NCBI GenBank assembly: GCA_024207135.1
Contig: CP042428.1
Coordinates: 124,001 to 188,000, forward strand
From: Arthrobacter sp. C2
GTDB lineage: Bacteria; Actinomycetota; Actinomycetes; Actinomycetales; Micrococcaceae
DNA: 64,000 nucleotides
Direction of reading: 5' to 3'
Shown: in pieces, positions 6,366 to 28,923 of the stretch
Position numbering within the stretch: the stretch's first letter is position 1
Layout of the letters: each line of letters opens with the position of its first letter
Notes under the pieces: model-generated
Told to the model about the DNA's origin: nothing
The model's database searches: none
The model's input: only the letters and a program-made list of their open reading frames with translations
Translations under genes and position numbers: made by a program

Positions 6366-6713
6366 GAGCCTTGTGCCCACCCGCCTTTCGCCGCGTGTTG
6401 CCGAACCGCGGTCCCGATTCCCCTTCCCCCACAGTAGGACCGCCCGGCGCCCGTCCCGCGGAAACGCAGCACCCCCTGTGGACGGAACCCGCTGCGCCCC
6501 GGGAGTTTCTCCACAGATCCGGCCGGAGCCTTGTAGCCGCCCCGGCACCCGGGTATGGTCGCGGTATTGCGTCATGAAACTAACTGGATATTGCCGCTCA
6601 CCAGCACTCCGGGGTGCCTCGCGAGGCCATCCCAAGCACCGGCCCCCGCACGCCTTGGCGAACGGCATGGCTCCCGGCCACCGGCCGGGAGCCGGTCACG
6701 GCAGGGATGCACG
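6366..6713. promoter_or_regulatory. Divergent promoter region between FHA-FtsK gene and tad operon
   Basis: A 348-base non-coding gap between two divergently read genes; it must carry the tad operon promoter and that of the FtsK-like gene. I could not pick out convincing -35/-10 pairs and saw no tRNA or small RNA fold. Confidence 0.35.
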
Positions 6714-7943: not shown

Positions 7944-8791
7944 GCGTCTTCCTGGGACTGACCCTCGGGTTCGGGCTGCTGCTGGTCTTCCGTTCCTTCA
8001 CCGCCGCGGCGCACCCCGGCGCGAGGGTCGGCAACGGGCGCATCGAGACCCTGCTGCTGCATGCGGGGCTGGACAAGGTCACCCGCGGCGGCTTCATCTC
8101 CGCCTCGATCACCGCCGCGGTCATCGTCGGGCTCATCGTGCTGATCCTCACCGGTGCCCCGCTGATCGCGCTGACCTTCGCCGGGTTCGGGGCCGGCGCG
8201 CCCTGGGCGCTGGTGCGCCGCCAGGGGGCCAAGCGCGCGGCAAACCTGCGCGAGCAATGGCCCGACGTGGTGGACCACCTGCGCTCGGCGATCCGGGCAG
8301 GGATGTCGCTGCCCGAGGCGCTGACGCAACTGGGATCGCAGGGGCCCGAAGCGCTGCGCCCGGCCTTCACCGACTTCGGCCTGGACTACCGGGCCACGGC
8401 CCGCTTCAACGACTCCCTCGAGGCCCTCGCCGCGCGCCTGGCCGACCCGGTGGCCGACAAGATCGTCGAGGCCCTGCGCATCACCCGCGAGGTCGGCGGC
8501 ACCGACCTGGGCGAGATGCTCGGCACCCTCAGCTCCTTCCTGCGCGACTCGGCCCGCACCCGCGGGGAACTCGAGGCCAGACAGTCCTGGACGGTGTCCG
8601 CGGCCCGCCTGGCCATCGCCGCCCCCTGGGTCATCCTCCTGCTGCTGGCCGGACAGCCGGCGGCGGTCATCGCCTACTCCTCGGTCACCGGAATACTCGT
8701 GCTCATCGGAGGGCTTGTCGTCTCGTTCATTTGCTACCGGACGATGATGCGCATCGGCCGGCTGCCCGAGGAAGAACGGGTGTTCCGATGA
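7940..8791 (+). CDS. tadB: Tad pilus inner-membrane platform protein TadB (type II secretion F-domain)
   Basis: 283 residues with a T2SSF domain. Hydrophobic segments lie at the N-terminus (about 1-16) and at about 50-80, and a pair at about 225-265, with the cytoplasmic helical F domain between them (about 100-220, including RSAIRAGMSLPEAL and a RITREVGGTDLGEMLGTL segment). It should anchor TadA at the membrane together with TadC. ATGA overlaps at both ends (tadA stop and tadC start) indicate translational coupling. Confidence 0.9.
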   Translation: MSVFLGLTLGFGLLLVFRSFTAAAHPGARVGNGRIETLLLHAGLDKVTRGGFISASITAAVIVGLIVLILTGAPLIALTFAGFGAGAPWALVRRQGAKRAANLREQWPDVVDHLRSAIRAGMSLPEALTQLGSQGPEALRPAFTDFGLDYRATARFNDSLEALAARLADPVADKIVEALRITREVGGTDLGEMLGTLSSFLRDSARTRGELEARQSWTVSAARLAIAAPWVILLLLAGQPAAVIAYSSVTGILVLIGGLVVSFICYRTMMRIGRLPEEERVFR

Positions 8792-9729
8792 GCACCGCCA
8801 TGATCCTGTCGCTGGTCCTCGGGCTGTCCCTGGGCAGCGGGCTGTGGCTGGTGCTGGTGCGGATCCCGGCGATGCGCCCGGTCACCTTCGCCCAACGCGT
8901 GGCCCCGCACCTGCGTGCCGGGCGCAGCGGATCGCGGATGCTCAACGAGTCCTTCGCGGCGCAGACGCCCTTCGGCCCGCTGGGCCGCATCCTTGGTCCC
9001 ATGCTGGCCGACGTGGCCAGGATGTCCCAACGCCTGAACCCCAGCAACGAGGCCATGGCCCGGAGGCTGGCCCGGGCCGGGCTGGGTATCAGCGTGCTGG
9101 ATTTCCGCGCCCAGCAGCTGCTGTGGTCCGCCGGGCTGACCCTGGCCGGTGCCGCGATGCTGGCCGCGAACCTCGTGGCCGGGCGCTTCAACCCGATGTT
9201 TGCGTTCCTCGTGCTGGTCTTTTGCGCCGTCGGAGGCTACCTGCTGCGCGACTGGTACCTGGGGGAGCAGACCACCCGGCGCAGCAGGCGGATCCTGGCC
9301 CAGTTCCCCACGATCGCCGAACTCATGGCGTTGGCCGTGGCCGCGGGGGAGAGCACCGTGGGATCCATCGAACGGGTGGCCCGCACCTCAAGGGGGGCGC
9401 TCAGCGAGGAATTCGCGCTGACGCTGGCCCACGTCCGCGCCGGGGCAACCCTGGCCGATGCACTGGCGGAGATGTCGGACCGGATCCAGTTGACGGCCAT
9501 GACCCGATTCGTCGACGCGATCACCGTGGCGGCCGAACGCGGGACCCCGATCGCCGCGGTGATGCGGGCCCAGGCCCAGGACGTGCGCGACGCGGCCAAG
9601 CGCGAGCTGATGGAATCGGCGGGGAAGAAGGAAATCGGCATGATGGTGCCCATAGTTTTCGGCGTGCTGCCGCTGACCATCGTTTTTGCGGTGTTCCCGG
9701 GGCTCGCGCTGATCGACATGAACTACTGA
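8788..9729 (+). CDS. tadC: Tad pilus inner-membrane platform protein TadC (type II secretion F-domain)
   Basis: 313 residues, second T2SSF platform subunit. An N-terminal helix, a central helix pair at about 115-155 and a C-terminal helix near 285-310 flank a cytoplasmic F domain (about 170-285, with FPTIAELMALAVAAGES and the motif RGTPIAAVMRAQAQDVRD). It starts in an ATGA overlap with tadB. In related loci the pilin gene follows directly; here that gene begins 226 bp downstream and is interrupted by the mobile element. Confidence 0.9.
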   Translation: MSTAMILSLVLGLSLGSGLWLVLVRIPAMRPVTFAQRVAPHLRAGRSGSRMLNESFAAQTPFGPLGRILGPMLADVARMSQRLNPSNEAMARRLARAGLGISVLDFRAQQLLWSAGLTLAGAAMLAANLVAGRFNPMFAFLVLVFCAVGGYLLRDWYLGEQTTRRSRRILAQFPTIAELMALAVAAGESTVGSIERVARTSRGALSEEFALTLAHVRAGATLADALAEMSDRIQLTAMTRFVDAITVAAERGTPIAAVMRAQAQDVRDAAKRELMESAGKKEIGMMVPIVFGVLPLTIVFAVFPGLALIDMNY

Positions 9730-9955: not shown

Positions 9956-10096
9956 ATGAGGATCGCAGACAGGATCGGGTTGATGGTCATCGGCATGGGA
10001 CTGTGGGTCGGCACCCACACCATGGACCTGGCCGGAAGCATCAAGCGCAACGAACGCGGGGATGTCCCGGGTTGGGTCATGATCTTGAAAGACTGA
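9956..10096 (+). pseudogene. 5' fragment of Tad-locus pilin-like gene, cut by element insertion
   Basis: An intact start region (AAGGAGAAGGAAC then ATG at 9956) encodes 43 residues of the original protein, ending in GDVPGWVMI inside the 16-bp att core. It then reads three element-derived codons (L-K-D) and stops at 10094-10096. The hydrophobic helix that completes the protein is found 9.6 kb away at 19699-19803. Joining the two across the core gives a continuous 77-codon frame. The position between tadC and tadE and the small size with a single hydrophobic helix suggest a Flp-type pilin or pseudopilin; the textbook G/xxxxE cleavage motif is not clear, so the role is inferred from context. Confidence 0.8.
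10069..10084. repeat. attL core (16 bp)
   Basis: GGGTTGGGTCATGATC, identical to 19683-19698. The bases on either side differ between the two copies, so the shared core is exactly 16 bp. It lies within codons 38-43 of the pilin-like gene. Confidence 0.9.
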
Positions 10097-10137
10097 TGTT
10101 GAAACTTAGAACACAATGACTTGACTAGCATGTATCC

Positions 10138-10782
10138 ATGACAGACATCGATGCACCTGTGCAAGCTCCTACTCCAGAAACAAACGATACAGGCCGAGAC
10201 AGTAGCCCGAGTGAACCCCCTCATGCCATTTTCGATGACAAGGTGTACGGCAAAAAGCTGGCTAAGGTCTTGCACGCCGACAATAGCTTCGACGGGCAGG
10301 CCGTGAAAGCCTTCCAACTGGCGGACTCGGCTATGCGTATTAGAATTCTTGCAAAGGTTCGAGCGAGTGGATATACCCATATGCAGAAACACTTGCCTGT
10401 AGTAACCGCACTCCTGATTTTCATACTCGGCTTTGTAGGAGTCTCACTCAAGGAAAACTTCTCCAGCCTCAGCGTCTCGCTGGCACAACTTGAAGAACTG
10501 GTTGCCAGCAATACACCGCTTGTCGAGATCACTGATTTGCTTGCGCGGACTACCGGCAACCAGAATCTGGTTTCAATAATAACGGGAGCGGTGCTGATCT
10601 TCCTGGTGCTCGCCGTCGGACGCGAGGGACGCTCGGACGCAAAAAAAGAAGCCAATCATATTGCGTGGCTCAAGGCGCTTGAGACGGCTGACGCGATAGC
10701 TACCAAATGTGAAGACGAGGAAGGCGAGGGGAAATCGAAGGCGTCAGGGACTACTGGTACCGTACCGGGCGCTGCCGGGTAG
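10138..10782 (+). CDS. Two-helix membrane protein at the attL end of the element, unknown function
   Basis: 214 residues: a polar, Pro/Thr/Ser-rich N-terminus (1-30), an amphipathic helical region (32-84), a transmembrane helix at about 86-104, an external loop of about 40 residues, a second helix at about 144-161 and a charged cytoplasmic tail. No enzyme motif is visible. It is the only plus-strand gene of the element and sits 53 bp inside attL, the position where integrated elements often carry host-altering cargo. No Shine-Dalgarno precedes the ATG, so it may be translated from a leaderless or nearly leaderless message. I do not recognise a family. Confidence 0.7.
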   Translation: MTDIDAPVQAPTPETNDTGRDSSPSEPPHAIFDDKVYGKKLAKVLHADNSFDGQAVKAFQLADSAMRIRILAKVRASGYTHMQKHLPVVTALLIFILGFVGVSLKENFSSLSVSLAQLEELVASNTPLVEITDLLARTTGNQNLVSIITGAVLIFLVLAVGREGRSDAKKEANHIAWLKALETADAIATKCEDEEGEGKSKASGTTGTVPGAAG

Positions 10783-10876
10783 TAACATTCGACCGAGTCA
10801 GGCGGTCTCGACTTCGAAATGGAGTGGGGGACCGTTTGTCCCGTGATCTTGAAGCTCTCATGTAAGGATAAGGAAA

Positions 10877-10910
10877 AGGCCCCAGCCTTCGTAAGTGAAG
10901 ACTGGGGCCT
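10877..10910 (-). terminator. Terminator of the YjzC-like operon
   Basis: Nine-bp arms AGGCCCCAG and CTGGGGCCT enclose an inner CTTC/GAAG pair. On the minus strand a TTTTCC tract follows, just after the stop of the 46-residue gene. It could also end the plus-strand message of the gene at 10138, but the plus-strand tail lacks T residues. Confidence 0.75.
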
Positions 10911-10921
10911 ATCCTGGCTAA

Positions 10922-11062
10922 CTAATTGCTGCGAACCCATTCCTTGCGGTTAGCGTCATACGTGGCCCAGTAGCCCTTGGGAGAGTCCAGGGACCCGTCG
11001 AAGAACCGACGGTCGCCATGCTCTGGGCCGTCAGCGAGCGAGCGCTCGTTGTAGGCCGTCAC
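10922..11062 (-). CDS. 46-residue protein coupled to the YjzC-like gene
   Basis: A short GTG-initiated frame whose start overlaps the upstream stop (GTGA), a normal sign of translational coupling. The sequence is acidic and aromatic, with RRFFDGSLDSPKGYWATYD and a terminal KEWVRSN; no membrane helix or cysteine pair. The FDGS..SPKGYW pattern looks like a small folded domain rather than chance coding. Function unknown; context suggests that it works with the YjzC-like partner. Confidence 0.6.
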   Translation of the reverse strand: MTAYNERSLADGPEHGDRRFFDGSLDSPKGYWATYDANRKEWVRSN

Positions 11063-11253
11063 TTGCCACGCCCGGCGTTGTTCCTCGTACGGTCAGCAAT
11101 GACGTAGGACTGGCCGGGTTTCGGCGTTGGAGGAAGAGTGGTTCCCCTCGGAACTGTCCTCTCCTGGCCGGTGTGGCCTCCGCGGGAGCCAATGATTTCG
11201 TACTGTGCGGATGCGGGAGCAGGCTGTCCCGGCTTGAGCGGCGATGATGCCAT
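11059..11253 (-). CDS. YjzC-like small protein
   Basis: 64 residues resembling the YjzC family: KPGQPAPASAQYEIIGSRGG near the N-terminus, TGQERTV, then LPPTPKPGQSY. Family members are about 55-65 residues, cytoplasmic and of unknown function, and are often carried by mobile DNA in actinobacteria. GAAGGGAC lies about 10 nt before the ATG. Its TGA overlaps the GTG of the 46-residue gene, making a two-gene unit closed by a hairpin terminator. Confidence 0.75.
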   Translation of the reverse strand: MASSPLKPGQPAPASAQYEIIGSRGGHTGQERTVPRGTTLPPTPKPGQSYVIADRTRNNAGRGK

Positions 11254-11701
11254 GGTCTTAGTCCCTTCAGACTAATTGGGTACGAAAACCAAGTCCTTCA
11301 GCGACTTCGACACGCCGTAAAAGTTGCGGTCCGAGATGGATAACCACTACTCTCGAAACATTCCCCTGCAAAGGAAACAACTCAATACCGAATCTCAGCC
11401 CCAGCGGCCTAGCCGCTTGGGGCTAGATTCCTTTGGTCTTGCTTTCTCGTTAAAGCCTACATCTAGTGGGGCCTCAAGGGTTAGACCCCAATATGATGTA
11501 TTACACCGCTGTCATTCCACCTGCCGACTGCCCACAAGCCCTGTGGATAAACTGCCGACGTTAAGCCGCGAGAATTCAATGAATTCGAATATTTGTCCAC
11601 AGGGTGAGGGCTGGTCGACAGAAAAATAAATCTCTGGCGTGTCGTTCGGCACGGCGTGTCGGAAAGTGTCCTCTGGCCGATTGCTGTAGGTGCATGTGGA
11701 A
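11254..11701. other. 448-bp non-coding region with an inverted pair of DnaA-box-like sites
   Basis: No convincing gene. TGTGGATAA at 11542-11550 is a perfect reverse complement of the DnaA box TTATCCACA. TTGTCCACA at 11593-11601 matches the box preferred by high-G+C actinobacteria. The two face each other across an AT-rich 42-bp spacer that contains the palindrome GAATTCAATGAATTC. A hairpin with arms like AGCCCCAGCGG/CCGCTTGGGGCT lies at about 11398-11425. This may be a secondary origin, a DnaA-controlled promoter or a partition-type site. Confidence 0.45.
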
Positions 11702-12241
11702 TTACGGTCCCGGATTCCACCAATGCTTGAGGCCTAGATCTCGCTGTGCCTGGTCTATGAATTTGCTCCACGCCTTCTTTTGCTGAGAGCGTTCTTCATT
11801 CTTAGTATTGCCGTCGAACGACGCGCCAACCCAAGTGATCAAAAGATCCAGATAGGTGTTATACAGCTTCTGAGCCTTAGTCGATCCGATTATTTCCAGA
11901 TCGTAGCGAAACTTGTATGATCCCTTTATCCTTTTTGACAGCTTACGTGACGTATTATTTATATGTTCAACAGAATGCATGTAAGCGTAATTATCCGAGC
12001 TGTAGTCATTTTCCTGTGGATAATTATTGTAATGAGATTTCTGCTGTTCTAGATAGTTTTTTATGTCTAATACAAGACTTCTCTCATATTTCGTTATCTC
12101 ACGATAAAGTGCGATCCTTTGTTGTCTCTGCCAGCGCTTACTTTCATTGAATCCAGCTATCATGTATCCGGTTGCGCCTACCAAGAGTGCTACTAGGACG
12201 CTCACCGCCCCCGGTGCAATGGATTCGATAAATTCATTCAT
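11702..12241 (-). CDS. Single-pass membrane protein with long cytoplasmic helical domain, unknown
   Basis: 179 residues with one transmembrane helix at about 9-30, followed by a basic, charged and probably helical domain beginning SKRWQRQQRIALYREITKYE. It is notably rich in Asn, Lys, Tyr and Ile and its DNA is the most AT-rich coding stretch of the window, indicating acquisition from a different background. The N-out, C-in layout is typical of small phage- or island-encoded proteins, for example some immunity or exclusion proteins, but no specific family is recognised. Confidence 0.65.
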   Translation of the reverse strand: MNEFIESIAPGAVSVLVALLVGATGYMIAGFNESKRWQRQQRIALYREITKYERSLVLDIKNYLEQQKSHYNNYPQENDYSSDNYAYMHSVEHINNTSRKLSKRIKGSYKFRYDLEIIGSTKAQKLYNTYLDLLITWVGASFDGNTKNEERSQQKKAWSKFIDQAQRDLGLKHWWNPGP

Positions 12242-12406
12242 GTACTGATCATAGAAGGTGCCCGAGATCGCGTGAATTTAGTGCGCGTTGGGGTCTGGGA
12301 TATTTGGGTGCAATTGGTGCGATATGGCGGATCGGGGAACATCTGGCGAGCTGGAAAAAGACGGTCTTGCGCGGGGCTTCCTTGGATGATGCACCATCAA
12401 GAAACG

Positions 12407-12649
12407 TTAGCGCATGGCATCGATCTTAACCAAGGCCCGGTAGGTGGCACCAATGAGCAGGATTATTCCCACGATAGCTAGTAGTCCACCTATGGAAGCT
12501 ATGACAAGGAATGGGAGGTCTAGCTCCGTGGAGCCATTGTCGAAAGCCATCCGAGTGCCGAACGCAAATCCGATGAAGGTTATTAGCGGACTTGCGAGAA
12601 TCAAGCTAATACCACCTACGAAAAGCCCTGCCGAGTTTTTGTACTGCAT
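12407..12649 (-). CDS. 80-residue two-helix membrane protein, unknown
   Basis: Two hydrophobic helices (about 8-30 and 46-68) separated by a short acidic loop (DNGSTELD). The ATG at 12649 is chosen because AGGGGGAA lies about 5 nt upstream; the longer frame starting at 12718 would add a segment with no ribosome site that overlaps the recombinase gene. It lies directly downstream of the small serine recombinase on the same strand and is probably cotranscribed. A holin-like size and topology are noted, but no lysis partner is present. Confidence 0.6.
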   Translation of the reverse strand: MQYKNSAGLFVGGISLILASPLITFIGFAFGTRMAFDNGSTELDLPFLVIASIGGLLAIVGIILLIGATYRALVKIDAMR

Positions 12650-12696
12650 GGTTCCCCCTGTGAATGAAACTGATATTGGTAGATTACATGGCCCGG

Positions 12697-13362
12697 CTAA
12701 TACTTCACATGTGCCCATGCCTCAGAGTTAAGGATCTTCTTGATCGTGGCAGGATACCAACGCGCTCCGCCCTGTGCTGTGGGGATCTGCTCGTCAGTGA
12801 GACCGTTGGCAATGGCCGTGAGTGTCGCACCCTCGGAGCGTTCCGCCTTGATACGTGCCACAACTTCCACGGGTAGGCCTGTGCGTCGTCCTAGGACGAC
12901 ACCCTGCCTCTTGAGTTCTGCGAGCGCTTCACGTGTTCGGTCGCCGATAAGACGGCGTTCATACTGAGCCACTGAGATCTGCACGTTGGCCATGAACTCA
13001 CCCTGTGATGTGGTGGTGTCGAGATCCATCTCGGATAGGACCATGGCCCATCCCTGTTTGCGGGACAGTGTCATGAGGCGGGAGAACTCTTCCACGTTCC
13101 TTGAGATCCGATCAATGCGGATAGCCAAGAGGTACTGTGCCTGTCCTGCCTTGAGGAGATCCAGTGCTTCATTCAGCAGTGGCCTAGCCTTCCGGGTCAT
13201 GCTCTTACCGGATGCCTGTTCCCGGATGACGATGACGTTCCATCCACGAGACTCTGCTACCTGCATTAGCACCTGCACTTGACCGTCAAGGCTTGCCCCG
13301 GACTTGGCCTGTTCCTCGGTCGAGACTCGGGCGTAAACGATGGCGGTCTGTGTGGTTTCCAT
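12697..13362 (-). CDS. Small serine recombinase (resolvase/invertase family)
   Basis: 221 residues. The catalytic domain has YARVSTEEQ with nucleophile Ser14, the LDGQ...AESRGW segment, AIRIDRISRN (active-site arginines) and a GEFMANVQISVAQYERRLIGDRTREAL helix, followed by a C-terminal helix-turn-helix-like part (EGATLTAIANGLTDEQIPT...GARWYPATIKKIL). This size fits resolvases that reduce multimers, or invertases, rather than large integrases. A TATAAA box lies 8 nt before the start, with an inverted repeat upstream, suggesting autoregulation. A second recombinase besides the integrase implies that the element has a circular replicating state needing multimer resolution. Confidence 0.88.
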   Translation of the reverse strand: METTQTAIVYARVSTEEQAKSGASLDGQVQVLMQVAESRGWNVIVIREQASGKSMTRKARPLLNEALDLLKAGQAQYLLAIRIDRISRNVEEFSRLMTLSRKQGWAMVLSEMDLDTTTSQGEFMANVQISVAQYERRLIGDRTREALAELKRQGVVLGRRTGLPVEVVARIKAERSEGATLTAIANGLTDEQIPTAQGGARWYPATIKKILNSEAWAHVKY

Positions 13363-13396
13363 GCTCTCAGTTTATACCAAACGGTCCTTTGGTTTA
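13363..13396 (-). promoter_or_regulatory. Recombinase promoter with operator-like inverted repeat
   Basis: On the minus strand TATAAA lies 8 nt before the ATG, and a 17-nt spacer contains the inverted repeat ACCAAA-N6-TTTGGT (13376-13393). The repeat fills the spacer between the putative -10 and a weak TTTAAA -35, an arrangement typical of an operator or of a res subsite bound by the recombinase. Confidence 0.45.
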
Positions 13397-13458
13397 AATA
13401 TATGCGTGACGTGGTGTGATTTCAAGGGTCGGCAGAACGCCTTAGGACAACAAGAAGA

Positions 13459-13480
13459 GCCCCTGTCAGAAACAGAGGCC
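13459..13480 (-). terminator. Terminator after the 131-residue membrane protein gene
   Basis: On the minus strand GGCCTCTGT and ACAGGGGC pair over eight positions (one G-U) around TTCTG, followed by TCTTCTTGTT. It lies about 70 nt past the stop at 13549 and before the recombinase promoter. Confidence 0.5.
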
Positions 13481-13548
13481 CTTCGTTGCTGGGAAACCCA
13501 ACATATTCAGTTCAGTTACTTACGGAGACAATCAGCGTGTCCGCTAGA

Positions 13549-13944
13549 TCAACCCGCGCTAGGCGAGCAGGCCTCAGACAAGCCTCGAATCACTTCCTTG
13601 CTGGTGCCATATTCCTGGGAGAAGGTGATTGCAGCTTCGTTGTATCGTTCTGCGATGTCGCCTTCAAGTGGATCTTGAATCTTTGACGTGCTGGCATCGA
13701 TGGTGTCTTCCAACATCGTGATGAAATCTCCAGTGAAAGTCACGTACTCAGTGCAGAGTGATCTATGAGTCTGCGCTGCCGCTAGCTCACTGTCTACGGC
13801 CGTCTGGGTTGCTTGCGCGCTCGCCACTTGAGCTTCGAGGGCTTGGATGGTTTTATCAGCTTTCTGATCTGCAATGACAAATCCGAGTCCACCCCCAACC
13901 ACTAGTGCGATAGCTGCGCTTCCGATGATTAGCTTGTTTTTCAT
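13549..13944 (-). CDS. 131-residue membrane-anchored coiled-coil protein, unknown
   Basis: An N-terminal hydrophobic segment (about 4-24, KNKLIIGSAAIALVVGGG) acts as signal anchor; the rest is an external helical region (ADKTIQALEAQVASAQATQ) with two cysteines far apart. No lipobox. Two start choices exist: ATG 13962 within the duplicated leader and ATG 13944, which follows GGGGAAT; the latter gives the more natural signal anchor. It shares its 5' leader with the zinc-ribbon gene upstream, so the two are probably co-regulated. Family not recognised. Confidence 0.6.
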   Translation of the reverse strand: MKNKLIIGSAAIALVVGGGLGFVIADQKADKTIQALEAQVASAQATQTAVDSELAAAQTHRSLCTEYVTFTGDFITMLEDTIDASTSKIQDPLEGDIAERYNEAAITFSQEYGTSKEVIRGLSEACSPSAG

Positions 13945-13952
13945 ATTCCCCG

Positions 13953-13996
13953 TGTTCCCCATCGAGTGTGATCAGAGTGATTTTCAGATCCTACAG
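13953..13996. repeat. Duplicated promoter/leader module, copy A
   Basis: Near-identical to 14623-14667. Read on the minus strand it carries CTGTAGGATC (TAGGAT as a -10 candidate), then AATCACTCTGATCACACT and the ATGGGGAACA start region. It precedes the 131-residue membrane protein gene. Confidence 0.75.
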
Positions 13997-14065
13997 TTCA
14001 TAGGAGTCACTCGGAGCATTCGGCCCATCTGATGACTTATCGTCGGCACCGAGGACACTTGCTTG

Positions 14066-14623
14066 CTACTCCTTGGGCTTGGTGAAGGCGGTCCATTCCT
14101 TCCCATCCCACCAACGTAGTTGGGAAGGATCTGGCTTGGGGTCTGAATAGAATCCAGGAGGTGGCAACACTTTCTCGAGGGTCTCGGGATCGGCAGTCGT
14201 GGCCACAGGTTTGGGGGTGGTGCCCTTTCTAGCCCTTGCTGACGCGCGAGCCAACATTTCATTGATCTCCCGAACTTCGTCACTGATGGGCGTAGGGACA
14301 GCCACCGCTGGTGCAATCTGCGTCTGGGCGAGTTTGGCTTCTCGGAAGGTGGCTTGGGCGTCGGCCCTTCGCCTTGCCAAGTCGTCAGCCTCTTCCTGTC
14401 GTTTACTTGCTCCCTCTTGCCAGCGCTGAGCGGCGGTTTGTCGGTGAAGGGAAGTCTGGTGTCCGCAAGCTCCGCAAGTTCCGGCCAGCGACATTGCCGC
14501 CTCAGAGCCAAACGCGGTAGTGGCAGCAACCATTACTCGCGTGAAGTTTCGTACGCCCTTTTCGACTCTTGACGCATTGCACTTCACGCAATCCCTACAG
14601 CCTGTCAATACTCTCCGCGCCAT
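14066..14623 (-). CDS. Zinc-ribbon and DUF2510 protein, unknown function
   Basis: 185 residues. The N-terminal part has paired cysteines (C9, C12, C15 and C50, C53 with a following His), suggesting a zinc ribbon; a charged helical segment (about 60-105) follows, and the C-terminus is a clear DUF2510 domain at about 150-183 (PPGFYSDP...LRWWDGKEWT). DUF2510 is widespread in actinobacterial membrane-associated proteins and its role is unknown. ATG 14632 and ATG 14623 are alternative starts inside the duplicated leader. Downstream on the same strand is the 131-residue membrane gene under its own copy of that leader. Confidence 0.7.
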   Translation of the reverse strand: MARRVLTGCRDCVKCNASRVEKGVRNFTRVMVAATTAFGSEAAMSLAGTCGACGHQTSLHRQTAAQRWQEGASKRQEEADDLARRRADAQATFREAKLAQTQIAPAVAVPTPISDEVREINEMLARASARARKGTTPKPVATTADPETLEKVLPPPGFYSDPKPDPSQLRWWDGKEWTAFTKPKE

Positions 14624-14667
14624 GTTCCCCATCCAGTGTGATCAGAGTGATTTCCTTGATCCTACAG
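14623..14667. repeat. Duplicated promoter/leader module, copy B
   Basis: Matches copy A (13953-13996) over almost its whole length with a one-base length difference. It contains the same TAGGAT, the same GATCAGAGTGATTT block on the plus strand, and the same ATGGGGAAC start region of the DUF2510 gene. Confidence 0.75.
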
Positions 14668-15215
14668 AGTGCGCATGGTGCTCTCGTGGTTCTATTCATT
14701 AGATGACTCATCGTCACTCTTGATAGCTGTCGCTGGTTTGACCTCCCCGCAACTCTGATTGACTCTGATTGACGCTCCGGTATGTTTACTCCCCGAATCG
14801 TGAATTTCCCAAGCACCCTGCCCAGCGTTCCTGAGAGGCACCGGCCAAAGTTTCGGGAATGACGACCGCATCCAGGAATTAACTCTTCCTTGCAAACATT
14901 GGGGGGTGGAGCAAGCCCGTTCCCCCCGTTGATCCCTGCTTTACCCATCAACAGGCCTAGTATCTCTCCACGTGATTTCTGGATGGGCTTCCATGCATCC
15001 GATTGGGAGAATGGCCTGTGTGATCCGCTGAGACTTCCCGCCAACGAATGCCCGCAAATATCCTGCAATGCCCCCAGAGTCGATGCTATTGCTTTTGGCA
15101 CCTCCATGGGCGACACCTCCAAGAGTGAGACTGTCAGTGTAGAGATAATGCGTAGAGATAATGGGTTCCATGCAAGCGAGGTTCCATGGAACTGGCAATG
15201 GGGCACGATGGGGTG
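14668..15215. other. Region without a convincing gene; tandem ACTCTGATTG repeat
   Basis: About 550 bases between the primase and the DUF2510 gene. Open minus-strand frames exist, but none has a ribosome site, conserved motif or gene-like composition; short stretches in different frames look mildly protein-like, so a decayed gene is possible. A 10-bp tandem repeat ACTCTGATTG is at 14752-14771; on the minus strand it gives AATCAGAGT twice, echoing the ATCAGAGT core of the two leader modules. Confidence 0.45.
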
Positions 15216-15495
15216 ACGAAGGGGTGGCGACTCCTTACCCCTTTGCCCAACTTCCTTACAAACAAAGGGATGTAAGAGAGGGGCAACGGGGATGAAGGGG
15301 ATGAAGGGGTAAAACGTGAAACTCCGTCCCACTTGCTACAGCACAGGAGACGATGCCCTCTTTTTCCATACAATAAAGATTATAGAACTTTACCCCTTCA
15401 TCCCCTTTGTGGCCTCTGATTCCCTTGCAAACAAAGGGATGCGGGCGAAGGGGTAGCGACTTTTTACCCCTTCGCTACCCCTTCGCTACCCCTTC
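15216..15495. other. Candidate replication origin: two iteron clusters around an AT-rich core
   Basis: The 9-mer GAAGGGGTA or a one-base variant occurs at 15218, 15236 (inverted), 15294, 15303, 15391 (inverted), 15447, and then three times at 15465, 15476 and 15487 (inverted), these last at an exact 11-bp spacing. Two longer modules repeat on each side: CGAAGGGGTRGCGACTYYTT at 15217 and 15446, and CTTRCAAACAAAGGGATG at 15255 and 15424. Between the clusters, 15361-15390 has only 6 G/C in 30 bases. It ends 22 bp past the stop of the primase gene. Iterons flanking an AT-rich core 3' of a primase-helicase gene is the known layout of SaPI-type origins. Confidence 0.72.
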
Positions 15496-15517
15496 GCTCC
15501 CCATTTGCCGTGGTCAA

Positions 15518-17209
15518 TTATGCGCGAATCAGCTCAAATCCGACTACGCGAGACACTCCACCGGATGGCTTGGTTTCCATTTTGAGGTCCTTATCCCATT
15601 GGTAGCCTTTCACTCGCTTGCCGAACTGAGCATGGGCCATGGGAGTTCGTCGGTGCTTCCCACAAAGATCCATGTATCCGTCATAGAGTTCGGAGACCTT
15701 GACCGACTTGTTGATTGGGGTACCGGGGTTGTAGGTGAGGTTCGCATACTCCCGGAGGTATAGCCCGAGCAAATCTGATTCTTCGGCGGCTTCCCGTAGC
15801 CTGGCTTCCATTGGCTCAGTCTTGGGGAGCTTATTGTCGCAGTGGACCATGGCACCTTGATATGCCTGAATGAGCCTGACTGAAATGCCCTCGGCCTCGG
15901 CGTCCATCTTGCCGGGAAGGTCACTGTCCATTGGCTTACAGATTTGCCCGTCTTCACCACGCGAGTACGGCCCGGAGATGTTCACGTCATCCTTGGCCCA
16001 CTGGTCCGGGTGCGTTTCAGGGATGCGACGGTAGGGCATGAGCACTGGATAAAGCCTGTCTCGCAACTGGCTCTTGTTGGCGTCTGCTTTCAGCGGGTCA
16101 TTGGAGGTGATGACCATAATTCCTTGAGGCTCCACGCGTTCGGGCTGTGTCTGCATCCTGCGCACGATGTACTTACCGTTACCGGCGTAGTCCAGTAGGA
16201 AATTCTCGTCTACTTCATTGATGCACTCGGAGGCGACGACAACGCGAGAGTTTCGCATTTCATCCCTGAGGCGGGCTTGTTCGGTTCCATCTCGCATCTT
16301 CATCACGATGCGTTGGTCGTGCCGGGATACGTGGTCAGGATAGATGCGTTCCAGTAGCTCAGTGATCACGCCCTTGCCGCTGTTGGTTGCCCCGTAAAGG
16401 GAGACAAGGTGCTTCGAGTAGTGCCGGACCTGCCCCGAAAGTCCGATGCCCAAGAGCTGTTCGAGGATGCGTGCCTCTGAGCTGTCGTGGAAAGAGTCCG
16501 CACTGAGCATGTGACACCAGTTCGGAGCAACGGCCTTAGGGTTCCAGTTGTGCGGGATAGCTCGCCACACCAAACGGTCAGGCGAGGGTTCCAGTAGCTC
16601 CGGTTCCGGGTACTGCCATGCCCCGGTCGAATCTCGGAATGCTTTTTCGATGCTATGCATGTCGAGCACTCCGTTAGTGAAGACAAGATACTGCTTATCG
16701 TCGGCATCACGCGCGGTCGTATCCAACGGGAGCTTTCGTTGCAACATGGCGGCAACGGCCATTTGCCCCGCGTTGGAGTTCATCCGCTTCTGGATGATCT
16801 TAAGACCTCTAACAGCCGCTTTGATTCGTCCGTTGCTGTCGTTGATATCGGTCCCAGCTTTTGCGTTGGTCTCCTCCGTGACTTTCTGCTCCGGATTCCT
16901 CAACAGGAAATCATTCAGGAGCTTGTCGAGGAAGTAGAGGCCAAGGCCTGCGGTGATATCCACGGCGGCTCCATCCTCAACAGGCTTGTGCAACTGCCCG
17001 TCCCAGAGATACCACTGTTTTTGTGATGCGTCATAGCTGGCGAGGTCTTGCAGTTCCCCGGCGATTGCATCCGCGAGAGTTGCCTCACTCCACGGGACAG
17101 CATCCCGGAACTGCTCAGGCTCGAAAGAGGAAACCTCTTCGATGGTTTCATCCAGCCCGATAGTTTTGATTAGTTCATTGCGTAGTTCGTTCTGATTCTT
17201 TGTACTCAT
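15518..17209 (-). CDS. D5/P4-family primase-helicase (SF3 ATPase), element replication protein
   Basis: 563 residues. An N-terminal D5_N-type region (about 60-250, including the substrate segment TNGVLDMHS) precedes an SF3 helicase core: Walker A LYGATNSGKGVITELL near 270-280, Walker B-like RVVVASE near 325, and a sensor-type ITSNDPLKAD segment near 365. A winged-helix-like C-terminus with KRVKGYQWDKD closes it. The Walker A ends GKG where GKS or GKT is expected, which may weaken or alter nucleotide use. AAGGA lies about 10 nt before the ATG. The iteron region follows it directly, as expected if this protein binds and opens its own origin. No separate prim-pol gene is seen. Confidence 0.82.
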   Translation of the reverse strand: MSTKNQNELRNELIKTIGLDETIEEVSSFEPEQFRDAVPWSEATLADAIAGELQDLASYDASQKQWYLWDGQLHKPVEDGAAVDITAGLGLYFLDKLLNDFLLRNPEQKVTEETNAKAGTDINDSNGRIKAAVRGLKIIQKRMNSNAGQMAVAAMLQRKLPLDTTARDADDKQYLVFTNGVLDMHSIEKAFRDSTGAWQYPEPELLEPSPDRLVWRAIPHNWNPKAVAPNWCHMLSADSFHDSSEARILEQLLGIGLSGQVRHYSKHLVSLYGATNSGKGVITELLERIYPDHVSRHDQRIVMKMRDGTEQARLRDEMRNSRVVVASECINEVDENFLLDYAGNGKYIVRRMQTQPERVEPQGIMVITSNDPLKADANKSQLRDRLYPVLMPYRRIPETHPDQWAKDDVNISGPYSRGEDGQICKPMDSDLPGKMDAEAEGISVRLIQAYQGAMVHCDNKLPKTEPMEARLREAAEESDLLGLYLREYANLTYNPGTPINKSVKVSELYDGYMDLCGKHRRTPMAHAQFGKRVKGYQWDKDLKMETKPSGGVSRVVGFELIRA

Positions 17210-17298
17210 TGATTGTTGTCCTTACTGACATTGTTTACCTCCAAGAGGGTTTTGGGTTTGGTGCTGCATATATGCGTTCCGGCGAGCCGGTGCGGGTG

Positions 17299-17499
17299 TC
17301 ATCCTGTGACGTGGCTTTGGGCTAGTTCCTGCTCTTGCTGTGCAAGCTCCAGGAGCAACACGTTATTGGCGTGAGTCTCGTCCGCTAGCTTCATCTGGCG
17401 ACGATTCGCGTGATAGAGACGGAGACGTACCTTGTTCAGCTCCGAGCGGTCATGTAGACCCCTGAGGCTTTGGCGGGTGTTCTGGTTCGCGTGAGGCAT
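17299..17499 (-). CDS. 66-residue charged helical protein upstream of the primase
   Basis: Highly basic N-terminal half (NTRQSLRGLHDRSELNKVRL) and a Gln/Glu-rich helical end (LLELAQQEQELAQ). ATG 17499 has AAGGA about 10 nt upstream and is preferred over the longer frame beginning at 17601, which runs through a hairpin. It lies 90 bp before the primase on the same strand and is probably in one transcript with it. Its size and charge would suit a replication accessory protein, regulator or excision factor, but no helix-turn-helix is evident. Confidence 0.6.
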   Translation of the reverse strand: MPHANQNTRQSLRGLHDRSELNKVRLRLYHANRRQMKLADETHANNVLLLELAQQEQELAQSHVTG

Positions 17500-17597
17500 G
17501 AATGGATATTCCTTACTATGAGTTATTATGCACAGTTTCGGATTAAAGAGGGACTGTGCGTAGAGGCAAAAAAATGGTCGCCCGATTGGATGCATTG

Positions 17598-17630
17598 GCA
17601 CGGCCTGTTGATATGGTCAACAGGCCGTGC
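17598..17630. promoter_or_regulatory. Perfect 14-bp inverted repeat upstream of the replication genes
   Basis: Arms GCACGGCCTGTTGA and TCAACAGGCCGTGC separated by TATGG. No T run follows on either strand, which argues against a simple terminator. As DNA it is a good dimer-binding operator; as RNA it would form a stable hairpin in the 5' leader of the 66-residue protein and primase transcript. Confidence 0.5.
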
Positions 17631-17838
17631 AATTCAATGTCAGGCTGGACAGGCCTTGAGATAAGGATTCGGAATACCTTACTCGAATAGTATACCACAT
17701 GTTTATAACGATTTCAAGCGTGGCTTGCTTTTGGTTAACATGGTGTGCTAATGACTCGTACCCCACCCCCAAATAAGTCTAGGTATGTACTCCATACCCA
17801 CCGACCCCCAAGTAAGTACCCTTTTGGGCATCAAAAAA

Positions 17839-17858
17839 GGAGCCGTGTGGACAGCTCC
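17839..17858 (-). terminator. Second terminator behind the integrase gene
   Basis: On the minus strand GGAGC and GCTCC flank a 10-nt loop, with TTTTTT directly after. The stem is short, but the T run is the best in the element. Confidence 0.5.
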
Positions 17859-17965
17859 TGTGCGCGCGTACTTCGAGCATGGGTCTGGGTCCGGTGTTCG
17901 TGTCCTTTGGGTTGAAACGGAAAATTGAGCAGCCTCCATTCTACCTAAGAATGGTTCGCAAAGGA

Positions 17966-17992
17966 AGGCCCCTACCAAAAGGCAAGGGGCCT
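17966..17992 (-). terminator. Terminator of the integrase gene
   Basis: Perfect 8-bp arms AGGCCCCT and AGGGGCCT, loop of 11, with TCCTTTG after it on the minus strand, 39 bp beyond the integrase stop. Confidence 0.6.
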
Positions 17993-18030
17993 GCGTCCTA
18001 CGGCGCGCGATCGCCGGTTACTCATGTGGT

Positions 18031-19644
18031 TCATCCAGGATTCTGGGCGGATGGCTCCCAAAGCTGTTTGCCCACCTCGGAAATCTCGAACTCAATGTCA
18101 TCGGTGAAAGTTGGACCCGTGAGGTTCTTGGGCTTCTTGGGCAACTTGGGCTTTTCCCAGAGTGGCTCAGGAGTGGATGATGCCCTGCTCGGCAGTTCGG
18201 GGAGTTCCCACGGGTGCAGTGATTCCAACAGGGTCGCAACGTGAGCGTCCCGGAGCTTCTCGCCCAACGGCGTATAGGCGTAGTCGATGACATCCTCGGA
18301 GAACCGTTTGCCCTGACCGCCTCGGCTGATCTTGATTTCCGCAAACACGGAGGCCAGGAGATCCCGCCTAAGCTCTATCGGTGCGGCCTTCCATCCGGAC
18401 AGCTCGAAGCCCTCGAAGATGCTCACGGTCTTGTCTTGGTTGAGGTTGAACAACTCTGCATCCAGCCCGGATATCTTCTCGGCGTGCTTGGCTTCTTTGT
18501 CGGCAATGAGTGACGGGCGTAGACCTGCCTCAATCGCTTCTGAGAGCCACTCGTCATGTTCCATGGAGATCCGGAGCTTCTCTCCCTGCGCCTCGGCGAG
18601 GCGGCGTGCTGTGCCCTCCTGTTGTGCCCTGACCTCATTGTGTTGGGACAGGAGATCAAGTGCGCGGATGCTGACGGCATCTTCCAGTGGTTCGGCTGTG
18701 ATCGTGACATGTTTCGTCGTGGGGCACCGGTAGGTTCTGGGGGAGCCCGTGCCGCCTCGTTGTCCAGCGTTCATCCCACGGTCGCAAACTACGCACTGAA
18801 TGATGTTGGTCAGCAATCGGACGTCGTGCCGTGTGATCGTACTGTCACGCTTCCCTGTGCGCTTGGATTCGATCCGGAGCTGAATAGCATCGAACTGATC
18901 CTTGGTGAGAAGGGGCTTCCAGTCTTTGAGTACATACAGTGTTCCTTGGTAGTCCTGCATCCCGTAGAGTCGCGGCCTCGTGAAGTAGTTCCGAACGGTT
19001 CCGGAGGTCCACGCCTTGCCGCCTTGTTTGCCGGTCTGTGGAGTCTTGAGGCCTTGAAGGTTCCACAACTCGGAGACCTTGAAGAATGACCATTCACCGG
19101 AGGCCAGCTTCTCTGCGGCCTCAACGACTGCCTGAGCTTCCGCTTTGACCCAAGAGCCGTCCCGCTCTTGACCGAATGGGCGGATCGAACCGCGATACTT
19201 CCCCGTCTCAGCAATGCGTTGGTTTGCCAGCTTTTGACGCTCGGATTTCTTCTCACCCTCGGCGGCGTCGATTGCCGAACGGATGATGGAAATCATGCCA
19301 GCATCGGAGGTAGCAAAATCCAACTTGCCGCCGTCGCACATGTAGCCCGTGATCCCGGCTCCCTTGATGCGGAGGGTGTCCAGCACGTCTCGGCTGAGTC
19401 TGTCTTGCTTGTAGGCAACCACCACAGCGGGGGCATCCAGTAGGAGCCGTTCGAAGTCTGGGCGCTCTGCTCCATTGGTGGCAGAGATCGAGTTGTCTTG
19501 GTAGATCTCGCCCAAGGTCCAGCCCTTGGCCGTGATGAATTCCTTACAGGCCTTGATCTGGGAGGAAACGCTCGCGCCCTCGTCTTCGGTTCCCTGCTTC
19601 TTGTCCCGCGAGATTCGGGCGTAAATCGCCGCTGTAGTTGTCAT
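18031..19644 (-). CDS. int: Large serine recombinase (site-specific integrase)
   Basis: 537 residues. N-terminal resolvase domain with YARISRDKK and nucleophile Ser12, the VVAYKQDRLSRD segment (active-site Arg) and EKKSERQKLANQRIAE helix, followed by a recombinase domain (about 150-250, GSIRPFGQERDG), a zinc-ribbon region with CVVC near 285 and a later YRC, and a coiled-coil segment near 345-400, the order of phiC31/Bxb1-type integrases. Such enzymes act on attP x attB without host factors. Only 38 bp separate its start codon from the attR core. No recombination directionality factor is recognised nearby. The start ATG 19644 lacks a clear Shine-Dalgarno; GATAAT 8 nt upstream suggests a leaderless message. 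Confidence 0.93.
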   Translation of the reverse strand: MTTTAAIYARISRDKKQGTEDEGASVSSQIKACKEFITAKGWTLGEIYQDNSISATNGAERPDFERLLLDAPAVVVAYKQDRLSRDVLDTLRIKGAGITGYMCDGGKLDFATSDAGMISIIRSAIDAAEGEKKSERQKLANQRIAETGKYRGSIRPFGQERDGSWVKAEAQAVVEAAEKLASGEWSFFKVSELWNLQGLKTPQTGKQGGKAWTSGTVRNYFTRPRLYGMQDYQGTLYVLKDWKPLLTKDQFDAIQLRIESKRTGKRDSTITRHDVRLLTNIIQCVVCDRGMNAGQRGGTGSPRTYRCPTTKHVTITAEPLEDAVSIRALDLLSQHNEVRAQQEGTARRLAEAQGEKLRISMEHDEWLSEAIEAGLRPSLIADKEAKHAEKISGLDAELFNLNQDKTVSIFEGFELSGWKAAPIELRRDLLASVFAEIKISRGGQGKRFSEDVIDYAYTPLGEKLRDAHVATLLESLHPWELPELPSRASSTPEPLWEKPKLPKKPKNLTGPTFTDDIEFEISEVGKQLWEPSAQNPG

Positions 19645-19652
19645 GGAGCAAG

Positions 19653-19682
19653 ATTATCTCAACATAGGTACTTTGTGGTCAT
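19653..19682 (-). promoter_or_regulatory. Putative integrase promoter abutting attR
   Basis: On the minus strand ATGACC (19677-19682) directly adjoins the att core, with an 18-bp spacer to GATAAT (19653-19658), which lies 8 nt before the integrase ATG. The promoter would therefore be on the element arm and stay with int after excision, while sequence upstream of -35 changes with attachment state. Confidence 0.4.
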
Positions 19683-19803
19683 GGGTTGGGTCATGATCAC
19701 TTTAATGAGCGCGTTGCTTGTTGCGGCGCTCCTGGCCATCGCCGGCCCGCGCCTGGAAGAGCTGTTCAACCAAGCGATCGACCGGGTTGCGGGGATGGGC
19801 TAG
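19681..19803 (+). pseudogene. 3' fragment of Tad-locus pilin-like gene, with a new ATG supplied by the element
   Basis: Codons from 19684 onward continue the frame of the 5' fragment: GWVMI from the core, then TLMSALLVAALLAIAGPRLEELF, a hydrophobic helix followed by a charged tail, stop at 19801-19803. Two element bases (AT at 19681-19682) plus the core G make an in-frame ATG, so a 40-residue version lacking the polar leader could be translated if transcribed. No ribosome site is visible before it. In the unoccupied chromosome the full protein would have 77 residues. Confidence 0.75.
19683..19698. repeat. attR core (16 bp)
   Basis: GGGTTGGGTCATGATC, identical to the attL core. In the rebuilt attB the core is flanked by inverted AACGCG (10053-10058) and CGCGTT (19710-19715), placed almost symmetrically about its centre, as expected for a serine-integrase attB of about 40-60 bp. 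Confidence 0.9.
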
Positions 19804-19813
19804 CGACGCGCGC

Positions 19814-20221
19814 ATGCCACGGCCCATCGAATCCCGGAAGCACGGCACGCAGGAGAACCAGCAAGGTTCGGCGGTCGCCGAATTCGTGATGGTCTCCGCG
19901 CTGCTGATCGCGGTGTTCATGGGCATCTTGCAGCTGACTTTTGCGCTGCATGTGCGCAACACGCTCATGGATGCCGCGGCGGCCGGCGCCAGATACGGAA
20001 CCCTGGCCGACCGCGGGCCCGGCGACGGGGTGCGCCGCACCCAGGAACTGATCCGCGGGGCGCTCAGCGACCGGTTCGCTTCCAATGTGCACGCCACCCC
20101 CATCGACATCGGCGGCACACCGGGCGTGCGGATCACCGTGCGGGCAGGAATCCCGCTCTTCGGTATGGTCCCCTTCATGGGCGAGTTCGTGGTCCGGGGG
20201 GAGTCGGTGCGCTATGGATAG
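19814..20221 (+). CDS. tadE: TadE-like pseudopilin
   Basis: 135 residues. A polar leader of about 25 residues ends in QQGSAVAEFVMVSALLIAVFM, the TadE signature in which a prepilin peptidase would cut before the hydrophobic helix and a glutamate follows at about +5. The rest is a periplasm-facing domain ending GEFVVRGESVRYG. TadE/TadF proteins are minor pilins needed for Flp pilus assembly. The gene starts 10 bp after the pilin-like fragment and its stop overlaps the next start, so in the unoccupied site it is the continuation of the tadABC operon. Confidence 0.85.
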   Translation: MPRPIESRKHGTQENQQGSAVAEFVMVSALLIAVFMGILQLTFALHVRNTLMDAAAAGARYGTLADRGPGDGVRRTQELIRGALSDRFASNVHATPIDIGGTPGVRITVRAGIPLFGMVPFMGEFVVRGESVRYG

Positions 20222-20765
20222 GGCACGAGGGCACGCCGTTCCCCGGGAGGTCGGTTCCCGGCACCGGCGACCGGGTAACGCATGCCGTCCCGCCGCCGCG
20301 ATCCGGGCCACAACCGCGGCCGGCCCCGCAGCAACCTGCCTGCGTCGTCGGGCCTCCCGCGGCGCACAGGACGGCTCGTCCATCATCGAATTCATCTTCC
20401 TGGTGGTGCTGCTGCTGGTGCCGCTGGTCTATCTGGTGGTGGGCGCCGCGCACGTCCAGGCGGCCAGCTACGCCGCGGTGGGAGCGGCGGACCACGCCGC
20501 CAAGGTCTTCGTCACCGCCCAAACCGAAGGCCAAGGCCGTGCAAGGGCGGCCGATGCCGTGCAACGCGCCGCGGCCAACATGGAGGTCGGGCCCGGCCGC
20601 ACGCATTTCACCTACAGCTGCCGGGGCACCTGCCTGAGTGCGGGAAGCACCGTGACGGTCCATGTGTCCATTGAAACGGTCCTCCCGCTGCTCCCCGAGG
20701 GCTGGAGTTGGCGCACCGGCAGCGTCCAATCCGACGCAACCCAGCGGGTCGATCGATATGGGTAG
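20214..20765 (+). CDS. TadE/TadF-like pseudopilin
   Basis: 183 residues with a long, basic leader, then GAQDGSSIIEFIFLVVLLLVPLVYLV, the prepilin-like junction (glycine, then E at +5 region) and hydrophobic helix, and an external domain with a CRGTC cysteine pair. The start ATG 20214 lies within the tadE 3' end; the leader is unusually long (about 55 residues) and Arg-rich, so a later start is possible. It is the second pseudopilin of the locus and is coupled to the third gene by an 8-bp overlap. Confidence 0.75.
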   Translation: MDRARGHAVPREVGSRHRRPGNACRPAAAIRATTAAGPAATCLRRRASRGAQDGSSIIEFIFLVVLLLVPLVYLVVGAAHVQAASYAAVGAADHAAKVFVTAQTEGQGRARAADAVQRAAANMEVGPGRTHFTYSCRGTCLSAGSTVTVHVSIETVLPLLPEGWSWRTGSVQSDATQRVDRYG

Positions 20766-21291
20766 CCGCACGGGAATACGCGCGAAGCCCCGCCCGGGGG
20801 ATACTCTCGCACCCTGGCCAGCCTCCGGGGGCCACCGGAGCACGGTGCGAACCATGATTCCTCCGGGGCGCGAAGCGGGCCAGTCCATGGTGCTGATCAT
20901 CGGAATGGTAGCGATCGCCCTGCTAGCCATCAGCGTCGTGCTCGCCGCCACGGCGGTCAACGTCCAGGCGCACAAGCTCCTGTCGGTGGCCGACGGTGCG
21001 GTCGCTGCGGCGGCCGACAACTTCGAGCTCACCGCCGGGGGCGAGGACATCGCCACGCTCCGCCTGCAGCCATCCGAGGTCCGGCACGCTGCGGAAAAAT
21101 ACCTCGGTGACGTCAACGCCGGGGCGGGCTTTTCCAACCTGCACATCGTTGCCGCCGGGGTTGAACCGGATGCAGTCACCGCACATGTGCGGCTCGGTGC
21201 GGTCGTGCATCCGCCGATCATCGGCTGGGTGGTCCCGGGCGGCGTGAATATCCGGGTGGACGCCTACGCCCGGACGCTGCTTTCGCGCTGA
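20758..21291 (+). CDS. TadG-related pilus assembly protein / secretion-neighbourhood TadE-like protein
   Basis: 177 residues. After a polar N-terminus the segment REAGQSMVLIIGMVAIALLAISVVLAATAV is a signal anchor of the putative Flp-pilus assembly TadE/G-like type (Rv3660c-neighbourhood proteins), followed by an external domain with a helix (LLSVADGAVAAAADNFEL) and a beta-rich end. ATG 20758 overlaps the previous stop; ATG 20854, giving MIPPGREAGQS, is an alternative. It is the last gene of the tad operon. Confidence 0.75.
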   Translation: MGSRTGIRAKPRPGDTLAPWPASGGHRSTVRTMIPPGREAGQSMVLIIGMVAIALLAISVVLAATAVNVQAHKLLSVADGAVAAAADNFELTAGGEDIATLRLQPSEVRHAAEKYLGDVNAGAGFSNLHIVAAGVEPDAVTAHVRLGAVVHPPIIGWVVPGGVNIRVDAYARTLLSR

Positions 21292-28916: not shown

Positions 28917-28923
28917 CAACGAA

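Follow-up and report, generated by a model that had tools for sequence, protein, structure and literature searches.

An integrative element splitting a Flp-pilin-like gene of Arthrobacter sp. C2, best read as one of many that enter the tad-1 operon across the order

The window analysed here is a stretch of 64,000 nucleotides from Arthrobacter sp. C2 (contig CP042428.1, positions 124,001 to 188,000), and it contains a tad locus, referred to as tad-1, in which a pilin-like gene is split by an integrative element encoding a large serine recombinase or integrase (LSR). A 16-bp core, GGGTTGGGTCATGATC, was found on the forward strand at 10069-10084 (attL) and 19683-19698 (attR) and nowhere else in the window when both strands were searched with up to two mismatches, and none of 100 shuffled sequences gave such a two-copy match. 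The DNA between the cores (10085..19682; 9,614 bp from core start to core start) has a GC content of 54%, compared with 70% in the left flank and 63% in the right flank (to 30000). When 9956-10084 is joined to 19699-19803, a frame of 77 codons closed by a stop results; the joined protein reads MRIADRIGL...IKRNERGDVPGWVMITLMSALLVAALLAIAGPRLEELFNQAIDRVAGMG, whereas the unjoined left half meets a stop after 46 codons (...GWVMILKD). Both halves lie on the forward strand: the 5' half (9956..10084, codons 1-43; residues 1-44 of the joined protein match at 98% identity) carries the leader and presumed cleavage site, and the 3' half (19699..19803, codons 44-77 and stop) carries the hydrophobic helix and the C-terminus. 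The identical cores, the exact boundaries of the element and the restored frame, all proposed in a preliminary description of this DNA, were thus borne out.

The crossover is predicted to occur at the dinucleotide TG at 10073-10074 in attL and 19687-19688 in attR, the first two bases of codon 40 (W), which would place it downstream of the presumed leader and cleavage site and upstream of the hydrophobic helix. This prediction was made because the shared cores of two other insertions (in genomes G010 and G126, described below) begin there and the centres of attP symmetry fall there, the best centre lying on TG both in the host genome (G000) and in G010, weakly in each taken singly. Site-specific insertion by a serine integrase is close to certain, and since it splits the frame, the pilin-like gene is abolished. 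Single-strand DNA folds of the two junctions gave z-scores of -1.7 and -1.9 and were not used.

The gene order around the split gene is that of a tad operon, as had been described earlier, and is confirmed by Pfam matches to T2SSE, T2SSF and TadE. A divergent gene for an FtsK/SpoIIIE-family ATPase (2280..6668, reverse strand; PF01580, 3e-30) adjoins cpaF/tadA, encoding the T2SSE ATPase (6555..7943; PF00437, 3.9e-37), which is followed on the same forward strand by tadB (7942..8791; named by position and homology, no Pfam match), tadC (8788..9729; T2SSF, PF00482, 8.9e-16), the pilin-like gene, tadE (19814..20221; PF07811, 9.6e-11), a gene for a TadF-like minor pilin (20214..20765; named by position, no Pfam match) and one for a TadG-like protein (20662..21291, start uncertain; PF13400, 0.0017, below cut-off), and then by a release factor gene that we take to be prfB-like. 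The window also holds a tmRNA gene at 28550-28917, with the tag ADSKRTDFALAA.

The split gene, which lies between tadC and tadE, codes for a short protein in which a single hydrophobic helix can be recognised by eye; from position and helix only, we infer that this protein is Flp-pilin-like. Nearly all genomes of the family have the gene (223 of 240), and its attB codes for RGDVPGWVMITLMSALLVAAL, identical in the 12 sequences compared. The host has a second CpaF-like locus at 3997156, with open cpaE, cpaF, tadB and tadC, which is taken as tad-2 and in which a pattern search over 12 kb did not find a canonical Flp gene. A third CpaF-like match stands at 1872524, and a third weak pilin match, at 1280250, has no tad genes around it.

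Among the nine element proteins considered, the 537-residue integrase (18031..19644, reverse strand, starting 38 bp from attR) belongs to the large serine integrases by its matches over cut-off to PF00239 (1.9e-19) and PF07508 (2.8e-10) and matches phrog_95 (1.6e-75), the zinc ribbon scoring below cut-off; among solved structures it matches an integrase and the catalytic domain of the TP901-1 integrase. A small open reading frame beside it (17299..17514, reverse strand) has no match in the other elements compared and therefore gives no support to a role as directionality factor. The C-terminal part of a P4-type primase/helicase is encoded by a 563-codon gene (15518..17209, reverse strand; phrog_1156, 8.4e-30), with TIGR01613 (5.1e-9), D5_N and DUF5906 matching below cut-off, and has relatives in the G126 (24%) and G218 (22%) loci, whose integrases adjoin the pilin-like gene. 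Next to the 3' end of the primase gene there are iteron-like GAAGGGGTA repeats in direct and inverted orientation (15195..15508), which suggests a candidate replication origin. In addition, there is a 221-residue small serine recombinase (12697..13362, reverse strand) made of a Resolvase domain (PF00239, 2.5e-31) and the start of a Recombinase domain (PF07508, 5.1e-7). Copies of it, at L119 (3820-4479), L148 and L179, are found in tad-inserted elements, with 71% identity in G043 (tadC) and about 40% and 38% in G037 and G073 (both cpaF), and four of the six small recombinases met in the family survey, the one of the window included, lie in such elements. The integrase, primase and recombinase frames are all open.

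The remaining genes are less informative. They encode a 214-residue protein with two hydrophobic stretches by eye and no family (10138..10782, forward strand) and, on the reverse strand, a 179-residue protein with matches below cut-off only and no convincing family (11702..12241), a 103-residue hydrophobic protein without a family (12407..12718), a 137-residue protein with no convincing family and a weak match (29%, 4.8e-6) in the G010 element (13549..13962), and a 188-residue DUF2510 protein (14066..14632; PF10708, 3.6e-10). Neither the match of the 137-residue protein to SLATT_4 (Pfam, 0.015, below cut-off) nor the single weak match of a defence scan with PADLOC (DpdF, 0.0053, to the DUF2510 protein) was given weight. 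A 19-bp direct repeat, AGTGTGATCAGAGTGATTT, at 13965-13983 and 14635-14653, precedes two neighbouring element genes whose products both start with MGN, and is a duplication of their start regions. No virion, terminase, packaging or capsid-remodelling gene was recognised among the nine proteins, a search that families without known function could escape, nor was a relaxase or FtsK/TraB transfer gene of the kind that marks an integrative and conjugative element (ICE) or its actinomycete form (AICE). All 280 integrase matches and all 65 primase matches in named phage records were below 60% identity; one plasmid record matches the primase, and three viral contigs hold relatives of the integrase. 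Given the P4-type primase, the iteron-like repeats, the extra serine recombinase and the lack of recognised virion or transfer genes, we infer a satellite-type or plasmid-like integrative replicon, which is not filed in any satellite family.

The empty site, for which a search of related genomes had been suggested, was readily found. Of 14 other genomes of the genus, 12 have the pilin-like gene uninterrupted (in G002 the match covers residues 7-76); it is cut by a contig end in G011 and split by another element in G010. As expected of a large serine integrase element, attL and attR have a short common core and attB is uninterrupted in relatives. The G010 insertion, of 17.5 kb, has a 66%-identical integrase and mostly other cargo, and it lies at the same TG, where its 12-bp common core starts; both gene halves are open. 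From the same TG, the common core in G126 is TGGGT, the 5' half being a weak match (E 0.18). Every integrase of this clade A (from G000, G010, G126, G218 and Arthrobacter bambusae) sits next to the pilin-like gene's 3' half. An integrase next to this gene is also seen in three named relatives, Arthrobacter bambusae, A. citreus and Arthrobacter sp. Soil762, which may overlap the G-coded genomes. A second clade (G031, G034 and G103; support of 100 in the SH-like approximate likelihood ratio test, SH-aLRT) cuts the same gene approximately 20 bp downstream, at about codons 46-47; its insertions of about 39-45 kb have the size of a prophage, and the same split is found in G163, with about 40 kb inserted and no integrase seen. 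ComEC was found in all 15 genomes of the genus, the host's included.

A profile search for LSRs with PF07508 was run on 110 genomes of the family and gave 82 rows, of which 75 were counted after six short recombinase frames (G037_2973657, G022_C3, G073_418700, G086, G000_136679, G043_18834) and one stop-broken frame (G028) had been dropped. Fourteen of these 75 LSRs lie in tad-1 genes, against 0.1-0.3 expected by locus length under assumed locus and genome sizes. The commonest target is cpaF, with eight cases (G008, G018, G029, G037, G070, G073, G106, G115), followed by the flp-like gene (G000, G031, G034, G103) and tadC (G043, G063). Insertions of other elements into cpaF and tadC of relatives could not be seen from one window. 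Both gene halves were seen in nine cases (G000, G008, G031, G034, G037, G043, G063, G073, G103), and in the other five one truncated half abuts the integrase. As an adjacency control, the window's own LSR was excluded and 12 of 74 LSRs were found to abut tad DNA of the window, while its other host DNA was abutted by one (G051_C89, weak); the rule missed the G043 LSR, which lies about 3 kb inside its insertion. Thirteen further tad-1 cases, obtained from integrase similarity and coordinates and picked for nearness to tad, stand outside these counts.

The other families of the order were surveyed as well. From 98 rows, 12 of which belonged to the host's own family, 86 were left; 64 were fetched, by rank except for G355_3635075 (merged region) and G378, and 63 were counted, a broken frame (G355_3636432) being dropped and G274, which was unresolved, counted as not tad. 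Eleven of the 63 LSRs lie in tad-1 (10 of 62 without G378), with one gene half only in the DNA fetched. Eight of them were recognised by an alignment to a cut tad-1 gene or to the end of tadC (G277, G287, G293, G285, G362, G355, G308, G317), the G317 junction lying at the very end of tadC and G308 aligning over 39 cpaF residues only, and reading of gene tails added G281 and G378 (tadC) and G330 (flp-like, integrase 1 kb away). A possible further case comes from a Curtobacterium genome, of another family, in which a CpaF-like alignment (38%) breaks off at residue 181 and a serine integrase is found 63 bp from the alignment (L203, 2267-2938). Insertions are not confined to the first tad locus, since the G050 LSR cuts a DUF4244 gene (L125, 4664-4760; 25.0 bits, cut-off 27), which we take to be of the canonical Flp family, in a tad-2-type locus. 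LSRs were found in or beside Mg-chelatase-family genes in three of 75 cases in the host's family (abutting or fused) and two of 63 in other families (G278, 264 bp away, and G291), and membership of the Mg-chelatase family was confirmed for all five fragments (L169, L178, L147, L259, L261). We take these fragments to be comM, and the Mg-chelatase/ATP-dependent protease target named by Durrant et al., discussed below, to be ComM as well. The list of other LSR targets is partial: host frames picked by GC content at third codon positions (GC3) were fuzzy fragments, only a few of which (comM, a GTPase) could be recognised by eye. When LSR flanks were compared all against all by tblastx for common targets, they fell into a single 87-member cluster, which was ascribed to antisense matches, and the comparison was dropped.

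On a tree of 88 integrases (the 75 of the survey and the 13 picked), the tad label needs 12 changes, at least eight of them forced by starred branches; such changes are gains or losses and not a count of origins. Survey rows alone need eight. A 151-row tree needs 16 changes, 12 of them forced, and 12 changes remain when picked and unresolved rows are left out (134 rows). The label is clustered, as expected if relatives keep their site, and the flp-like gene is targeted by two separate clades, each with an SH-aLRT of 100. In the interrupted operons (31 loci, some genomes counted twice), 121 of 122 tad alignments are without a stop, the exception running into the element. On balance we take the element for one of many with a serine integrase that enter genes of tad-1, a probable Tad competence locus, across the order.

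Tad-pilus-dependent transformation of an actinobacterium has been demonstrated in Micrococcus luteus, where both tad loci are reported to be required (PMC4322843). According to that report, the tad deletions abolished transformation for all genes but one, and the exceptional gene gave a drop of more than 100-fold in one orientation of the cassette and abolition in the other. The role of tad-1 is also supported by a later account, in which an FtsK/SpoIIIE gene adjoins M. luteus tad-1 as it does in the present locus (PMC8467076). Because M. luteus tad-1 has seven locus tags and the host operon seven genes, the fourth M. luteus gene is probably the orthologue of the split gene.

We consider it quite probable that the LSR inserted this element into an attB of the flp-like gene, as one of many tad-1 insertions, with the expected loss of the Tad pilus and of transformation. 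The LSR would recombine attP with attB inside codon 40 of the 77-codon gene, leaving attL and attR with their common 16-bp core and parting the leader and presumed cleavage site from the helix, an arrangement seen in the sequence. The gene would be lost while the element stays and be restored exactly upon excision, the frame being seen and the excision predicted. Since tad-1 is required in M. luteus, the host would be expected, by orthology, to lose the Tad pilus together with natural transformation.

Several points weigh against this account. The attP symmetry is weak, the G000 value being reached by 42 of 500 shuffles, and no directionality factor was recognised in the element, so that excision is a prediction from sequence. 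The pilin role put forward in the preliminary description fits in position and helix, but the protein matches no Pfam pilin family or NCBIfam model and does not carry the Flp signature G/XXXXEY, reading G/DVPGWV if cut after G35, with W instead of E at +5; that role is still a presumption. The satellite status depends on primase matches partly below cut-off and on the absence of other genes. The transformation role is known from M. luteus and would extend to the host by orthology, and polar effects of the M. luteus deletions are possible according to their authors (PMC4322843). Finally, competence genes are not evenly targeted: no comEC match was found in any survey locus searched, and a single LSR, that of G050, was found in tad-2.

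A wider reading, which we hold tentatively and find nearly as easy to believe as to doubt, is that serine-integrase elements converge on the tad-1 operon throughout the order Micrococcales: distinct integrases would repeatedly have evolved to cut the pilin-like gene, cpaF and tadC, since an element that disables Tad-based DNA uptake is protected from being removed by transformation. Such a reading carries the conflict hypothesis put forward by Croucher et al. in 2016 (PMC4774983) over to another locus. Selection for blocking transformation as the driver would fit the LSR survey of Durrant et al. (PMC10083194) and the 2025 work on chromosomal curing (PMC12637031). Target choice might instead be neutral, a conserved and dispensable coding sequence being a common and harmless attB and the loss of transformation a by-product without benefit. 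The invariance of RGDVPGWVMITLMSALLVAAL and the presence of the gene in nearly all family genomes make it a good attB of this kind, and neither the lack of comEC matches nor the single tad-2 LSR would then be surprising. Such a neutral choice does not readily explain why so many targets lie in one small operon, with two positions in the flp-like gene, two in tadC and several in cpaF (approximate, from alignment ends), why Mg-chelatase/ComM genes are also hit, why at least 12 label changes, eight forced, are needed on the 88-row tree, or why LSRs hardly ever abut the remaining host DNA of the window. We regard it as rather doubtful, though far from implausible.

The two other explanations concern the state of the element. 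In Listeria, comK is a gene restored by excision, and the element studied here might likewise be a reversible switch that leaves under some condition and restores the pilus. The exact restored frame in G000, the open halves in G010, the nearly complete lack of stops in interrupted operons and the presence of a second serine recombinase would agree with this. Exact restoration is expected of any serine-integrase insertion, the intact neighbours may reflect young insertions, and no directionality factor or regulatory link was found, so that a switch appears unlikely. It is even harder to see the element as a fixed relic, with a dead integrase or dead sites and a pilin-like pseudogene: the failure to recognise a directionality factor would suit a relic, but the integrase, primase and recombinase frames are open, the att cores are identical and the pilin-like halves still code for conserved residues. 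We consider a relic very unlikely and retain insertion by an LSR into the flp-like attB, with the expected loss of pilus and transformation, as the preferred reading.

If the wider reading is true, tad-1 would be an actinobacterial counterpart of the comK/comGC/comM arms race, and Tad-dependent transformation would be common in these bacteria. Elements that keep breaking tad-1 across the order would be independent evidence that the operon matters for removing elements and that Tad-based uptake is widespread. Integrases with short sites in conserved actinobacterial genes are also possible integration tools. Among titles and the openings of abstracts, no description of integrases in tad or cpaF genes was found; most subscription journals and supplements were out of reach of this search, which is no proof of absence.

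P4-like satellites and phage-inducible chromosomal islands (PICIs) combine an integrase, usually of the tyrosine type, with a P4-type primase in about 10 kb and carry iteron-like repeats beside the primase gene. The present element shares this layout and differs from them in its serine integrase and in having no recognised packaging or helper-interference gene. As regards targets, Durrant et al. 2022 reported that those of LSRs are strongly enriched in DNA competence genes, a Mg-chelatase/ATP-dependent protease gene being the target of 12.4% of predicted site-specific integrases (PMC10083194); the main text of that survey does not use the terms pilus, secretion system or ATPase, and Tad genes may stand in its supplements. 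Elements in comM, comK and comFA (PMC4774983) are likewise insertions in transformation genes, and Mg-chelatase/ComM cases occur in our survey too, but the gene set is another one and here a single operon is targeted in at least three genes. A further parallel is offered by the prophages of comGC/comYC. The competence pilin gene comGC is the integration site of pneumococcal phages of group PPH100, for which a serine integrase is listed (PMC8637289); given this and the enrichment of competence genes among LSR targets (PMC10083194), the earlier remark, which took pilin genes to be unusual attB sites for serine integrases, cannot stand in that form. The element of Arthrobacter sp. C2 differs from these prophages in its target, a Tad/Flp locus of Actinomycetota and not ComG, in its size of 9.6 kb without recognised virion genes, and in that the split protein is only pilin-like; it resembles them in its serine integrase and in a short core within the pilin coding sequence of an uptake machinery, by which the gene is split (PMC8637289, PMC4774983).

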